Notes under the pieces: generated by a model
The model's input: only the letters and a program-made list of their open reading frames with translations
Told to the model about the DNA's origin: nothing
Database searches by the model: none
Shown: positions 20,902 to 25,655 of the stretch, piece by piece
Layout: each line of letters opens with the position of its first letter
How positions within the stretch are numbered: position 1 is the stretch's first letter
Virus record (IMG/VR): IMGVR_UViG_3300037041_000717
Coordinates: 1-39,289 of that record
DNA length: 39,289 bases
Strand: one strand, 5' to 3'
Source of the DNA: a virus
Program-made: the position numbers and the translations under genes

Positions 20902-22026
20902 CTAGACAAGTTTACCAAGGGCAGCAGCAAGATGCTTGCCGACCTGCAACGACGCCGGGCGCGGATCATCCGCGGTTGCCAGCGTGTCACCCGATGAGAC
21001 GGCGGTGATGAGCCCTTCCGGCATGGCGATCTTGTGCTTCTTCAGCACCTTTTCGATTTGCGCCGGGCTCTTCAACTCCGTCAATTCCGTAGCACTACAC
21101 CCTGCTTCGGTGAGTGCTGTCAATGCCGTCTGTTCATTCACCCACTGGCGGGTGGCCCGCTTCGGCACCAGCTTCCAGCCCGGCACCTCAACACCCGCCT
21201 CCAGCAGTTCGACCGCCATCTCGCGGGCGTCCCTGATCCAGCCTTCCAGCAGGTCGATGCTGGCCAAGGCCTCCGTCAGCCTGCCCACGTTGACCGCCTT
21301 GATGTTCTCGCGCTTGGCGCGCTCGACGGCACCGTTGACCAGCGGGCAGATCGACTTGGCAGCGCACCAGCGGCAGTGGTCGCCAGAGGCCAGCGGGGCG
21401 TCCGGCTGCTGGGCCGTGCGCACCGCCATGATCAGTTCCGCCTCGAAGCGGCGCACCCGGTCGAGGTCCGTCACCCAGCGGCGCACATGCGGCGGCTGCA
21501 CGATGATCACCTCGACCGTCTCGACCCCCTCGAAGGCCCAGCGTGTCGCCTCGGTGCGAAGGGCGGCAGCCGTGTAGAAGAGCGCCTGCGGGTTCTCTTC
21601 AGCCTCGACAGGCACGCCATCACCAAACTTCCAGTCCAGCAGAATGCCGCGATTGCCAATCCGGCCAACAAGATCGGCGGAACCAAAAACACCAGGGAGA
21701 GCGTCACCAAAGCCCACCACCTGCTCGACCGCGTATTCCAACTGTCCATCAGGGTCGATCTCATCCAGCACCGCCAACGCGGGCAACAGCTTGCGCTCCA
21801 GCCGGTCCTCCGTCAACTCGATGCCGTTGTGCATCGTGCCGAGGAAATCTTCCGGCCGCTTGTTCATCTCCAGAATGGTGGCGATAACGTTGTGCAGCAG
21901 CGTGCCCTCGTCGGCGTAGCTGCTGGACGGCTTGGGCGGCACCTGCTGGACGAGCGCGACGCTGCCGGGGCAGTTGATCACGCGCTTGGCGGTCGAGCCG
22001 CCGACGATGGTTGAGTGTTGAGCCAT
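20902..22026 (-). CDS. Cas4/RecB-like PD-(D/E)XK nuclease (DUF2800)
   Basis: The protein has 374 residues. The nuclease core shows DEGTLLH (39-45), FGSADLVG (Asp118), ILLDWKFG (Asp131, Lys133) and NPQALFY (Gln147, Tyr151), the usual order of RecB-type catalytic residues. Cys19 plus Cys218-x2-Cys221-x5-Cys227 matches the four-Cys iron-sulphur arrangement of Cas4 and AddB nucleases. DUF2800 proteins accompany phage PolA operons. It probably processes DNA ends for recombination-dependent replication or degrades host DNA. No CRISPR array or other cas gene is present. Confidence 0.85.
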   Translation of the reverse strand: MAQHSTIVGGSTAKRVINCPGSVALVQQVPPKPSSSYADEGTLLHNVIATILEMNKRPEDFLGTMHNGIELTEDRLERKLLPALAVLDEIDPDGQLEYAVEQVVGFGDALPGVFGSADLVGRIGNRGILLDWKFGDGVPVEAEENPQALFYTAAALRTEATRWAFEGVETVEVIIVQPPHVRRWVTDLDRVRRFEAELIMAVRTAQQPDAPLASGDHCRWCAAKSICPLVNGAVERAKRENIKAVNVGRLTEALASIDLLEGWIRDAREMAVELLEAGVEVPGWKLVPKRATRQWVNEQTALTALTEAGCSATELTELKSPAQIEKVLKKHKIAMPEGLITAVSSGDTLATADDPRPASLQVGKHLAAALGKLV

Positions 22027-22385
22027 TATTCATCCCCCTTGAGCTTAAGACCAAACGTCAACAAAAGATCCCGGTATTCTTGTACCGTGGCTAGCCCCAC
22101 ATTATGGTGGCGCAAGATTTCCTTCGCCGAGAGTTTGACTAACTCGCCGACGGTATCAATACCCAAATAGCTCATGGCGTCGTTCCGCGCGCGGGTGCTG
22201 AGATTAACCCAACGCAAACGGACGCAGTCTATGTTTACGGGCACCGTGGCAGGCGTAGCGCCCGCTGCGGGGGAGATTTTTTGACTGCGCTTCATTAGTG
22301 CTAAACGGCGCTCGGCTTGCAGTTCTTTAACCCGCGCTTTTGCCTCTGCAATCTGCAAATCAAGGTGGTAGAGATGTTCGTCCAC
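22026..22385 (-). CDS. Coiled-coil protein with an RNA polymerase alpha C-terminal domain-like module
   Basis: The chosen start is GTG 22385 behind GAGAGGAGACGACA, which matches the leader of other early genes; a GTG at 22418 lacks one. The protein has 119 residues. Residues 2-30 form a helix (HLYHLDLQIAEAKARVKELQ). Residues about 57-116 align with bacterial alpha-CTD. RWVNLSTRARNDAMSYLGI fits the segment around E. coli Arg265 and Asn268 (here Arg65 and Asn68). HHNVGLATV fits the NLGKKSL loop with Asn294 and Gly296 kept (Asn95, Gly97). It is first in the replication operon. It may bind UP-element-like DNA or displace host alpha-CTD. Confidence 0.7.
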   Translation of the reverse strand: MDEHLYHLDLQIAEAKARVKELQAERRLALMKRSQKISPAAGATPATVPVNIDCVRLRWVNLSTRARNDAMSYLGIDTVGELVKLSAKEILRHHNVGLATVQEYRDLLLTFGLKLKGDE

Positions 22386-22466
22386 TGTCGTCTCCTCTCG
22401 TGTGTTGAGCCCCAGCACTACAGAATTCTTGTTGACCTGTCAATGATTGTTTGATAGGTGATGGTC
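22386..22466. promoter_or_regulatory. Divergent control region with TTGAC-CT-GTCAA dyad
   Basis: The 12-bp dyad TTGACCTGTCAA (22432-22443) supplies a consensus -35 TTGACA on the minus strand and TTGACC on the plus strand. The -10 matches 17 bases away are weak (TAGTGC minus, TAGGTG plus). The minus and plus operons both start here, so an activator or repressor at the dyad could switch both. Confidence 0.4.
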
Positions 22467-22745
22467 ATGCGCGAAAAAGAAATCGAGACGTACCTCTGCA
22501 AGACCGTCGAGCGGATCGGCGGCCAAGCGTTCAAATTCACCTCGCCCATGAACCGCGGCGTCGCTGACCGGGTGGTGTGCCTGCCCAACGGCACGGTGTG
22601 GTTCATTGAGGTGAAGGCCCCCGACGGCAAGCTGACGGCGTTGCAGGAGCGTTTCGGCAGGCGCATGGCGGACCTCAAACAGAACTATGCAGTGCTCTAC
22701 ACGAAGGAGGAAGTGGACGAATGGTTTCGTACTATAACGAGATAG
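22467..22745 (+). CDS. VRR-NUC domain nuclease
   Basis: The start is taken as ATG 22467; ATG 22461 and GTG 22458 are alternatives. The 92 residues show the VRR-NUC pattern: KFTSPMNRGVADRVVCLPNG with the catalytic Asp in GVADR, then FIEVKAP with Glu and Lys, then a Gln-rich helix LTALQERF. This is a Holliday junction or flap-type nuclease fold common in phages. It is the first gene of the right early operon and overlaps the methyltransferase gene by 25 bases. A role in recombination or host DNA breakdown is inferred. Confidence 0.85.
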   Translation: MREKEIETYLCKTVERIGGQAFKFTSPMNRGVADRVVCLPNGTVWFIEVKAPDGKLTALQERFGRRMADLKQNYAVLYTKEEVDEWFRTITR

Positions 22746-24328
22746 ACCCCTACGCCGCGCAGTGGCTGCGCAACCTGATCGCCAATAAACTGATCGCTGA
22801 CGGAGATGTCGATGAAAGATCCATTCGGGACGTGGCTGCTGCGGACCTCCGCAGTTACACCCAGTGCCACTTCTTCGCCGGTATCGGCGTCTGGTCCTAC
22901 GCCCTCCGTCTTGCCGGATGGCCCGACGACCGGCCCGTCTGGACCGGCTCCTGCCCATGCCAGCCTTTCAGCGCCGCCGGACAAGGCAAGGGGTTCGACG
23001 ACGACCGGCACCTCTGGCCTGCATGGTTCCGACTTATCAACGCATGCAGACCGCCCGTTATCTTCGGGGAACAAGTCGCTAGCGCCGACGTCGTCGGCAA
23101 GGCTTCGAAATCGAGAGGCCGACAGGCGGTACGGGATAGCCTATCGGATGCGGCACAGGGCGCGCGACCTGGTGCGCCACGCCGAGCATCGGGCGAACCG
23201 GAAAGAGATTTCCTTCGATCTGTGGGATCACCTTCCGGCGCTGCAGGCGAGGATCGACGCGGGCAAGTGCGAGGTGACTGGTCTGCCGCTGAATTTGAAA
23301 GGCGGCAGGACATGGGACAGTCCGTCTCTAGATCGCATCGACCCTCAGAGCGGCTACGTCTACTCGAATGTGCGGGTGGTCTGTCATGGCGTGAACAGCG
23401 CGATGGGGGATTGGGGCGAGCAGAAACTGGTCGAGATGGCGAAAGCTATCTTGGACATGCGGAGGCAGAAATCGAACGCCTTCTCGCGGGCTTTGGGCGA
23501 GAGGCTGAAGGCGAGAATACAGGACCGTGGCTCGACGCTGTATTCAATGACTTGGAACGAATTGGCTACGCCGCAGGGGCGCACGTTCTTCCGGCTTGCG
23601 GCATCGGCGCCCCGCACATCCGCCAGCGCCTCTGGTTCGTCGGAGAAAGGTTGGACGACACCGCAAGCGCACGACACGACCGGGCGCTCGCTGGGTCAGA
23701 AGGAGAAGCACGGAACGAAGCACGGCTGCGCTTGTCTGGTGAGGGACGCGGATCTGACGGCTTGGCCGACGCCCAACGCCAACGACTGGAAGGGGGCATA
23801 CCAGGACGTGGAGAAGAACTTGGCGCGAACCGCGGCGGGGCATCAGGTGACAATGCAAGACGCAGCGAGACTGGCGGGCTGGCCGACGCCTGCAACGACG
23901 GACCACAAGGGCGGGTACATGGGGGGGCGCATGAGGAACGGCAAGCTCTCGACGGATCGGCTGGACGTGACGGCGCAGATTGCGGGCTGGAACACGCCAG
24001 CAGCCTCGGACGGGAACGGGGGCAAGCGCCCGCACCCGGACACGACGATGACGGGTCAGCACCCGGAGGGGCGGAAGGTGAACATGGGGCTGGCCTCGCA
24101 GGTTCACATCGGCTTCATCAAGACGGAGCCCGCCCGACTGACGGCCACTGGCGAGATGCTGACTGGCTCTTCTGCCGGGATGGAAAGTGGCGGCCAGTTG
24201 AACCCGGCACATTCCCGCTGGCTCATGGGGCTCCCGCCCGAGTGGGACGCCTGCGCGCCTACGGCAATGCCATCGTCCCGCAAGTCGCGGCAGAAGTGAT
24301 CGGAGCGTACCTCGATGCCCGCCCTTAG
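22721..24328 (+). CDS. DNA cytosine-C5 methyltransferase (frame A of an overprinted locus)
   Basis: The protein has 535 residues; ATG 22721 follows GGAGG. Motif I is FFAGIG (51-56), motif IV CPCQPFS with catalytic Cys80, motif VI GEQVA (116-120), motif VIII HIRQRLWFV (299-307). The C-terminus has motif X-like VGRLRAYGNAIVPQ. Two unusual parts are visible. Residues about 126-268 are a charged, low-complexity insertion. Residues 310-475 are a hypervariable region with repeated GLADA or GLEHAS segments, probably the target-recognition part. Both parts are also read in frame B (22812-24299). The enzyme would methylate phage DNA against host restriction. Confidence 0.85.
   Translation: MVSYYNEIDPYAAQWLRNLIANKLIADGDVDERSIRDVAAADLRSYTQCHFFAGIGVWSYALRLAGWPDDRPVWTGSCPCQPFSAAGQGKGFDDDRHLWPAWFRLINACRPPVIFGEQVASADVVGKASKSRGRQAVRDSLSDAAQGARPGAPRRASGEPERDFLRSVGSPSGAAGEDRRGQVRGDWSAAEFERRQDMGQSVSRSHRPSERLRLLECAGGLSWREQRDGGLGRAETGRDGESYLGHAEAEIERLLAGFGREAEGENTGPWLDAVFNDLERIGYAAGAHVLPACGIGAPHIRQRLWFVGERLDDTASARHDRALAGSEGEARNEARLRLSGEGRGSDGLADAQRQRLEGGIPGRGEELGANRGGASGDNARRSETGGLADACNDGPQGRVHGGAHEERQALDGSAGRDGADCGLEHASSLGRERGQAPAPGHDDDGSAPGGAEGEHGAGLAGSHRLHQDGARPTDGHWRDADWLFCRDGKWRPVEPGTFPLAHGAPARVGRLRAYGNAIVPQVAAEVIGAYLDARP
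22812..24299 (+). CDS. Overprinted protein with HNH-like domain and WxTP repeats (frame B)
   Basis: A 495-residue frame lies inside the methyltransferase gene, shifted by +1. ATG 22812 has GGAG six bases upstream (22802-22805). Residues about 100-215 resemble an HNH endonuclease: GKCEVTGLPLNL, then SPSLDRIDPQSGYVYSN, then VCHGVNSAMGDWGE. The C-terminal half has four repeats of the form [GA]WxTPxxxD (GWTTPQAHD, AWPTPNAND, GWPTPATTD, GWNTPAASD) and ends GQLNPAHSRWLMGLPPEWDA before a basic tail. I recall similar proteins beside phage Dcm genes, usually called hypothetical. The HNH domain makes translation of this frame likely. Confidence 0.65.
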   Translation: MKDPFGTWLLRTSAVTPSATSSPVSASGPTPSVLPDGPTTGPSGPAPAHASLSAPPDKARGSTTTGTSGLHGSDLSTHADRPLSSGNKSLAPTSSARLRNREADRRYGIAYRMRHRARDLVRHAEHRANRKEISFDLWDHLPALQARIDAGKCEVTGLPLNLKGGRTWDSPSLDRIDPQSGYVYSNVRVVCHGVNSAMGDWGEQKLVEMAKAILDMRRQKSNAFSRALGERLKARIQDRGSTLYSMTWNELATPQGRTFFRLAASAPRTSASASGSSEKGWTTPQAHDTTGRSLGQKEKHGTKHGCACLVRDADLTAWPTPNANDWKGAYQDVEKNLARTAAGHQVTMQDAARLAGWPTPATTDHKGGYMGGRMRNGKLSTDRLDVTAQIAGWNTPAASDGNGGKRPHPDTTMTGQHPEGRKVNMGLASQVHIGFIKTEPARLTATGEMLTGSSAGMESGGQLNPAHSRWLMGLPPEWDACAPTAMPSSRKSRQK

Positions 24329-25655
24329 ACCATACCAGAGCCAAGCCGTAGACTTCATCTACGAACGCGACCGCAGCATGGTCCTGGCACCCGTGGGCGC
24401 GGGCAAGACGGCCATCACGCTGACCGCCATGCGCGAGTTCATGGTCAACGGCGTGGTCAAGCGGTGGCTGGTCGTCGCGCCCAAGCGCGTCTGCACCGAC
24501 GTGTGGCCGGTCGAGGCCCCCAAGTGGGCACCCGACCTGACCATCGCCGTGGCGGTCGGCAACGCAGCCAAACGCCGTGCCGCCTTCGCGTCCGACGCCG
24601 CCGCGGTCGTGGTCAACTACGACGTTCTCGACGCCGTGGGCGATGACTTTGGGCGGTTCGACGGCATCGTGTTCGACGAACTGACCCGGCTCAAGAACCC
24701 GTCCGGCAAGCGGTTCAAGGCACTGCACAAGCACCTGGGCCGCTTCAACGTGCGGATCGGCCTCACCGGGTCGTTCACGTCGAACGGGCTGGAGGATGTG
24801 TTCGGGCAGTGCTTCGTGATCGACCAGACGCTGCTGGGCCGCGCCAAGGGCGCGTTCATGCAGCAGTACTTCAACCTGATCAACCGCGAGTTCAACCAGT
24901 GGGAGCCGCGCGCGAACGCGCTGCCGCAGGTCATGGCCCGCATCAAGCCCGCCACCTTCGTGCTGGAGCCGGGCGACTACAAGGACACGCTGCCGCCATG
25001 CCATATCGTCGAGATGCGGACCGACCTTGAGGACCGCAGTCCTTACGAGAAGATGAAGAAGGAGATGCTGATCGAACTGGATGGTCAGGAGATTACCGCG
25101 CTGTCGGCCGCCGCGCTGACGACCAAGCTCCAGCAGTTGGCTGGCGGCTGGGCCTACGCGACGATCCTCTGGCCCGACACGGGCCGCGGGCGCTTGGCGC
25201 AGAAGATCGCGTCATGGTACTCCTGGCACCGCTTCGAGATGCTGGACGAGATCCTCGAAGGCAACCAGCAGGACAACACCATCGTCGTCTACAACTTCGT
25301 CGAAGAACTGACGCAACTCAAGAACCGCTACCCGCACGTCTGGACGCTGGACGACGGCGCCGACGTGATCGAGCGGTGGAACCGCGGCGAGATCCGGCTG
25401 CTGGCCATCCATCCTAAGTCTGCTGGGCACGGAATTAACATACAACTAGGGGGTGCAAAAATGGTCTTTTTGTCCCTACCGTGGTCGCTAGAACTGTACG
25501 AGCAGACCATCGGGCGTATCCACCGCAGCGGCCAGACCCGCGACGTGTGGGTCTACGTCATGCTCACCAACAAGACCATCGACGAGCGCATCTGGGCCGC
25601 GCTTGCCGACAAGCGGTCCATTTCCGATCTGGCCCTTGAGGAGTTGAAAGGATGA
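24315..25655 (+). CDS. SNF2-type superfamily 2 helicase
   Basis: The protein has 446 residues. Motif I is VGAGKT (27-32), motif II FDELTRLKN with DELT at 121-124 in place of DEAH, motif III LTGS (150-153). The C-terminal RecA domain has IHPKSAGHGINIQ and motif VI QTIGRIHRSGQ (397-407), typical of SNF2-like proteins. Phage relatives lie beside VRR-NUC and PolA genes and are thought to remodel or unwind DNA during replication or recombination. The start overlaps the methyltransferase end by 14 bases. Confidence 0.88.
   Translation: MPALRPYQSQAVDFIYERDRSMVLAPVGAGKTAITLTAMREFMVNGVVKRWLVVAPKRVCTDVWPVEAPKWAPDLTIAVAVGNAAKRRAAFASDAAAVVVNYDVLDAVGDDFGRFDGIVFDELTRLKNPSGKRFKALHKHLGRFNVRIGLTGSFTSNGLEDVFGQCFVIDQTLLGRAKGAFMQQYFNLINREFNQWEPRANALPQVMARIKPATFVLEPGDYKDTLPPCHIVEMRTDLEDRSPYEKMKKEMLIELDGQEITALSAAALTTKLQQLAGGWAYATILWPDTGRGRLAQKIASWYSWHRFEMLDEILEGNQQDNTIVVYNFVEELTQLKNRYPHVWTLDDGADVIERWNRGEIRLLAIHPKSAGHGINIQLGGAKMVFLSLPWSLELYEQTIGRIHRSGQTRDVWVYVMLTNKTIDERIWAALADKRSISDLALEELKG

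Follow-up and report, generated by a model that had tools for sequence, protein, structure and literature searches.

The most probable reading of this phage locus is that one C5-cytosine DNA methyltransferase is encoded as two nested polypeptides, with an HNH-like element inserted in the copy analyzed here; we put the probability of this reading at roughly 0.78. The window, that is, the whole stretch of 39,289 bases of the virus record, also contains phage portal, terminase, DNA polymerase and tail genes. Direct support comes from the dual coding itself, frame-wise constraint, a selected start of the nested frame, the obligate co-occurrence of both frames, a motif IX match, an empty-site allele of the insertion and the tract boundaries around it.

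The large frame, ORF A (22721..24328, + strand, 535 aa), is predicted to be the large (catalytic) subunit. The second frame, ORF B (22812..24299, + strand), is shifted by +1 relative to A and is the putative nested small subunit, fused here to an HNH-like domain. An earlier note on this DNA had given both frames with these limits and a one-base shift, and had credited B with its own GGAG at the right distance. All of this is correct: the Shine-Dalgarno GGAG lies at 22802..22805 (+ strand), six bases before the ATG at 22812, and 22806 is an alternative in-frame ATG. Upstream, a VRR-NUC-like nuclease gene (22458..22745, + strand; phrog_93, E 2e-29; match to PF08774 below the family cut-off) overlaps the start of A by 25 nt, and downstream an SNF2/DEAD-type helicase gene (24315..25655, + strand; phrog_62, E 2e-117) overlaps its end by 14 nt.

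ORF A matches PF00145 (E 1e-14) and phrog_363 (E 4e-75), and its profile matches M.HhaI with an E of 3e-16. These matches and the alignment confirmed methyltransferase motifs I, IV, VI, VIII and X, which had been read from the letters alone. Motif I (FFAGIG) is located at 22871..22888 by sequence and family alignment, motif IV (CPCQPFS, with the PCQ core and the catalytic Cys) at 22952..22972 by sequence and HMM alignment to M.HhaI, and motif VI (FGEQVAS) at 23063..23083 by sequence and alignment. Motif VIII (IRQRLWFVG, 23618..23644) was identified by alignment and codon-position rates and is dual-coding with the hairpin region of B, and motif X (GNAIV, 24263..24277) by alignment and HMM alignment; all of them are on the + strand. 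Motif IX is missing from A in the alignment of the A family, and a target recognition domain (TRD) and motif IX are not found together in this one chain, as they are in a single-chain enzyme. We also observed a motif II-like YYNEIDPYAAQWL ahead of motif I at 22730-22888 (A residues 4-56), which is conserved through the family. This motif II/III-like stretch runs as YYNEIDPYAAQWL...GDVDERSI, and the order in A, motif II-like and then motif I, is permuted relative to ordinary C5-methyltransferases.

ORF B can be divided into several parts. First, an N-terminal tail (22812..23098, + strand) covers motifs I-VI of A; stops are avoided in it and its amino acids are little constrained. Second, the inserted element follows, which is described below. 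Third, a conserved domain (23499..24296, + strand), defined by alignments, comprises a hairpin (GSTLYxxTW...TPxGR...LRAS), the WxTP modules and a motif IX block. The four WxTP modules of frame B, identified by sequence and by a B-frame-only substitution pattern, begin with WTTPQAHD (23652..23762), WPTPNAND (23763..23879), WPTPATTD (23880..23987) and WNTPAASD (23988..24128), all on the + strand. The putative motif IX, QLNPAHSRWLMGLPPEWD (24195..24251, + strand), was placed by an HMM column match of its LMG Met and lies just 5' of motif X of A on the DNA. B ends in GGQLNPAHSRWLMGLPPEWD and a short tail. Thus the four WxTP units, the endonuclease-like segment (phrog_3322/1035) and the conserved C-terminus (phrog_31772, E 3e-39) that had been seen in B are indeed there. 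The C-terminal half of B matches PHROG families labelled DNA methyltransferase and its middle matches endonuclease families, and B has no match in Pfam or NCBIfam. A profile of B gave only chance hits against PDB sequences and Pfam, and Foldseek found nothing better than E 0.5 in PDB for B of this locus. AlphaFold2 models of B from this locus and from a short relative, L043, had low confidence (pTM of 0.35 and 0.23, respectively), their confident parts being limited to one hairpin and a few helices. Such failure of structure prediction and search would not be surprising for a subunit analyzed apart from its partner.

The WxTP units are found every 37 residues (middle half 33-40), and nearly every B contains 1-7 of them. 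The same unit recurs at 80-88% DNA identity among loci whose A cores are just 59-72% identical, sometimes at other positions in B, and the arrays are mosaic. Scans with B collected 159 loci, 80 of them in known or presumed prophages of bacterial genomes and about 80 in viral contigs. An A sequence in the same relative frame is present in 156 of the 159; of the other three, two are truncated where the contig stops and in one the N-terminus of A is shifted, so a B without A was found nowhere among these loci. In L169, L194, L263, L265 and L297, A is apparently interrupted by a stop or frameshift and the B region persists; these appear to be decayed copies or further insertions.

We then used an HMM built from 21 single-chain methyltransferases of proteobacterial genomes. 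A collinear chain of A (I-VIII), B (repeats and C-terminus) and A (X) outscores A alone in 101 of 107 loci, with a mean gain of 5.3 bits, against 0.4 bits when the B part is shuffled. In all 40 alignments that reach that far, the Met of the B LMG falls on the motif IX column, inside RRLTPRECARLQGFPDDF; LMG was placed on a model column in only these 40 of 109 alignments, and neither the chimera nor the LMG counts are independent because the loci are related. In a fixed-window motif IX scan, made with 8 methyltransferases only, other B windows scored as well as the motif IX window. Judged by this sequence match, which is short, the conserved C-terminus of B is the candidate motif IX that A lacks.

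These results bear on the best surviving alternative, in which B acts independently, for example as an anti-restriction factor or as a nuclease in a protection/cleavage pair with A. It is unlikely. Its own start and, in this locus, its fusion to an endonuclease-like domain would suit an independent B, but B never occurs without A and supplies the missing motif of A in a collinear position, the HNH is absent from most B proteins, and the HNH fused to B here is without the usual catalytic His. The methylation/cleavage pair with B as the nuclease, which the earlier note had offered as speculation, finds no support: most B homologues are without the HNH, and the conserved part of B consists of the WxTP units and motif IX. 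In the copy on a Klebsiella aerogenes plasmid, no restriction-enzyme neighbour was seen.

The HNH-like part is better described as an inserted element. It occupies 23099..23527 (+ strand), within 3 nt of the 23096-23524 first proposed, lies between motifs VI and VIII, is HNH/endonuclease-VII-like in frame B and is stop-free in A. The close relatives L005, L012 and L024 do not have 23099-23527 in the alignment and represent empty alleles. Overall, the dual coding that had been proposed is borne out, but not the idea of a linked methylation/cleavage system. The view of the HNH as a domain of B stands for this locus, with the correction that the conserved domain of B begins only past the insertion. 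Identity to L005 is 90-100% outside the element and its flanks, and falls to about 65% in the upstream tract (23019..23098) and about 61% in the downstream tract (23528..23607). Such sharp divergent tracts on both sides fit the repair of a homing cut, with co-conversion of the flanks as a possible result; non-homing recombination with a diverged relative is also possible.

The site-1 element is carried by this locus, L011, L018, L041, L062, L023, L089 and L094 in the non-redundant set, and by L029 in addition. Given the HNH protein, the insert of this locus has 0 A-frame stops where 4.8 are expected, and eight site-1 inserts together have 0 against 56 expected, which indicates that A is kept readable through the insert. 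The HNH core itself is constrained in frame B. Searched with HMMs for the HNH fold that had been predicted, the site-1 segment matches phrog_3322 (E 2e-23) and phrog_1035, endonuclease VII (E 3e-12), but has no match to a Pfam HNH family. The domain has SLDR or SLDQ in place of the DH motif, so that Arg or Gln presumably stands where endonuclease VII has its catalytic His; nuclease activity at site 1 is therefore doubtful. L003, L117, L126 and L144 carry a different, canonical HNH (PF01844 in L003, E 4e-6) at a second site, directly ahead of motif X, and three site-2 elements tested have 0 A-frame stops against 16 expected. The C-terminus of the site-2 HNH is a further copy of the last part of B (LPPEWDACAPT...), which looks as though inserting the element had duplicated or restored this sequence. 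With regard to a self-splicing intron or intein, 22000-25000 has no Rfam match, to an intron or otherwise, at E 1, and the site-1 insert encodes a protein of nuclease type in frame B while A stays open.

We also considered that the HNH-B fusion is a functional bifunctional protein, nuclease and specificity subunit in one, and no passenger. The absence of a stop between HNH and B, already described for this locus, extends to 5 loci in all, and together with the conserved HNH core it would favour such a protein. Against this, the HNH ends in a stop of its own in L023, L089, L094 and L029, where an ATG behind it could let B restart, the element is missing from close relatives, and Arg or Gln replaces the catalytic His. 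A bifunctional protein is thus improbable, slightly more so than an independent B.

The double coding was examined in 160 related loci fetched from viral contigs, half of them via B and half via A. The non-redundant set comprised 120 loci with A intact, including this locus and three annotated phages. The null model permuted synonymous codons gene by gene in frame A, leaving the A protein and its codon usage unchanged. As a result, only 18 B-frame stops were observed in the 120 loci where 408 were expected, compared with 1587 observed and 1357 expected in the third frame. In this locus by itself, 4.7 B-frame stops would be expected and 0 are present (P 0.002); for the 56 loci retrieved solely by way of A, the count is 8 against 187. 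By region, there were 0 stops in the repeat region (111 expected), 1 in the motif VIII region (69 expected), 27 in the N-terminal region (161 expected) and 17 in the C-terminus (91 expected). Moreover, a frame-B ATG with a Shine-Dalgarno sequence is present in 74 of the 120 loci, against 24.8 expected from the shuffles (z 11). A Shine-Dalgarno site fixed in position was rejected, as its place varies among loci; the ATG-Shine-Dalgarno pairs are still enriched over the shuffles. The dual coding of A and B is real, as the earlier note had maintained against a GC artefact, and the start of B is selected. In the overlap, we noticed a G run at about 23935-23942 with 7 Gs in this locus, 8 in L024 and 9 in L025; changes in its length swap or break the A and B frames and may reflect phase variation or homopolymer sequencing error.

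We further compared the rates of difference at A codon positions 1/2/3 between loci with a p-distance of 0.1-0.2. Codons 1-28 of A, which do not overlap B, show 0.088/0.051/0.36, as in an ordinary gene constrained in A only, and motifs I-VI show 0.117/0.092/0.287, with A mostly constrained. The pattern is flat in the motif VIII region (0.188/0.11/0.188) and the C-terminus (0.197/0.137/0.172), where both frames are constrained. The WxTP region, in the 70-80% identity class, gives 0.45/0.186/0.11, the pattern of frame B alone. Here B is the better conserved of the two frames in 99% of 1080 ungapped matches; amino-acid identity is 82% for B, as opposed to 51% for A and 53% for the third frame, and the TRD region of A is hardly constrained in frame A. 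Codon-level constraint in both frames, which had been put forward as a check, thus places B under purifying selection, alone in the WxTP region and jointly with A in motif VIII and the C-terminus. That GLADA-type and WPTP-type segments are encoded by the same DNA is also true, but the emphasis has to be reversed: given the B-alone rates, it is WxTP coding in B that produces the GLADA repeats of A as a side effect.

It is very unlikely that programmed +1 and then -1 frameshifting from A yields one fused A-B-A chain. The collinear A-B-A reading does restore a canonical methyltransferase; however, two efficient frameshifts would be needed, the selected ATG and Shine-Dalgarno sequence of B lie far upstream, both frames avoid stops over the whole overlap, with A open even through the HNH inserts, and the nested B annotation in phage K1ind2 assumes an internal start. 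That B is no gene and stays open merely through GC-rich codon usage in A, as the 64% GC of A in this locus and the low complexity of the N-terminal part of B could suggest, has next to no probability and is already refuted by the stop counts in the shuffles, which preserve that usage, and by the evolution of the repeats as a B-frame gene; B is also still open in a 49% GC relative, and the A-frame intein of EBPR siphovirus 2 is full of B-frame stops. The latter is a probable intein in motif IV of A (L328, 3001-5496), between CPC and CQPFS, downstream of which the B domain is open, and it forms a natural control for the B-frame test. The 49% GC relative is Escherichia phage CarlMeissner (L327, 1052-2355), where a putative homing endonuclease gene is annotated directly upstream of the methyltransferase.

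In the split enzyme that we favour, A would provide motifs I-VIII, which make up the catalytic core, as well as motif X. B would be translated in frame +1 from a ribosome-binding site of its own within A, as a small domain of WxTP modules followed by motif IX. Both would be co-translated from one mRNA and assemble into an active enzyme, which may protect phage DNA from host restriction. The WxTP modules would serve for target recognition, as suggested by Bacillus phages that array multiple TRDs in one methyltransferase (PMC12707154), and module swaps in frame B would change the specificity. The HNH-like element, probably of homing type, has inserted at the junction just upstream of the functional domain of B. 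Being in frame with B, it would lead to an HNH-B fusion, and being without a stop in A, it would leave A with a tolerated insert of about 143 residues. On balance, we lean toward a family, widespread in phages and prophages, that keeps its whole specificity half nested, in which interchangeable WxTP cassettes are shuffled and A is just kept stop-free, and in which HNH elements exploit frame boundaries with neither protein broken.

The earlier note knew of no description of such an overlapping pair. This holds only in part, since nested ORFs are annotated in K1ind2 and the split C5-methyltransferase M.EcoHK31I and out-of-frame HNH insertions in phage methylase genes are published. The small-subunit gene of M.EcoHK31I is reportedly also nested in another frame, and its subunits are said to be about 309 and 176 aa, which resembles the short relative L043 (A of 302 aa, conserved B domain of 176 aa). 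According to the published account, this two-polypeptide enzyme (YGGCCR; Lee, Kam and Shaw 1995) has motif IX in the small polypeptide alone, and motifs I-VIII and X, together with the predicted TRD, in the large one (cited in PMC3404938). The likeness lies in motifs I-VIII and X in the large chain A and motif IX in the small chain B, and the difference in the TRD: it is placed in the large subunit there, whereas the VIII-IX region here evolves as frame B only. Also unlike M.EcoHK31I, 1-7 shuffled WxTP modules are nested here, and the locus is phage-borne and carries HNH insertions; the likeness is one of described motif layout. The nested ORFs of E. coli phage K1ind2 (GU196280) are annotated as 'C-specific methylase' and 'Mte8-like protein'. 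They share the nested arrangement, the offset class and the helicase gene downstream of the pair, but are known from annotation only, without a stated function, and have no HNH.

The ShiLan domain is an HNH hidden out of frame within a DNA methylase gene of a mycobacteriophage, and its authors asked how hidden HNH genes get translated (PMC11855218). Both cases have an insertion in a methylase gene, an open methylase frame, the HNH in another frame and uninvaded alleles in relatives. Unlike in ShiLan, the HNH here shares its frame with a nested gene that already exists, and its possible fusion to this gene would offer a route to translation; the methylase family and the site also differ, and another HNH type is found at site 2. 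The start and stop of its own that a ShiLan-type insertion has are not found inside the insertion here, an own stop being present just in the four restart loci named above. SPR and phi3T are multispecific Bacillus phage C5-methyltransferases. As in those enzymes, several modules stand in a row between motifs VIII and IX; they are single chains in one frame with established module specificities, whereas the specificities here are presumed. Multi-TRD phage C5-methyltransferases are known from Bacillus phages (Trautner 1996, cited in PMC12707154).

Split C5-methyltransferases and hidden HNH insertions were thus known already, and what would be new is the placement of recognition modules in a nested frame. 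If this is true, a large set of phage genes that are usually given as a single methyltransferase, in N15, epsilon15, K1 phages and many prophages, become two-gene loci. The specificity determinant would be mostly unannotated, so that predictions or tests of methylation that use only A would fail. The locus is also a rare case in which one can follow, codon by codon through a single gene, which frame is constrained, and it offers a direct test of module swapping by nested genes. Finally, hidden out-of-frame homing endonucleases may be translated by sitting in, or coupling to, an already translated nested frame.
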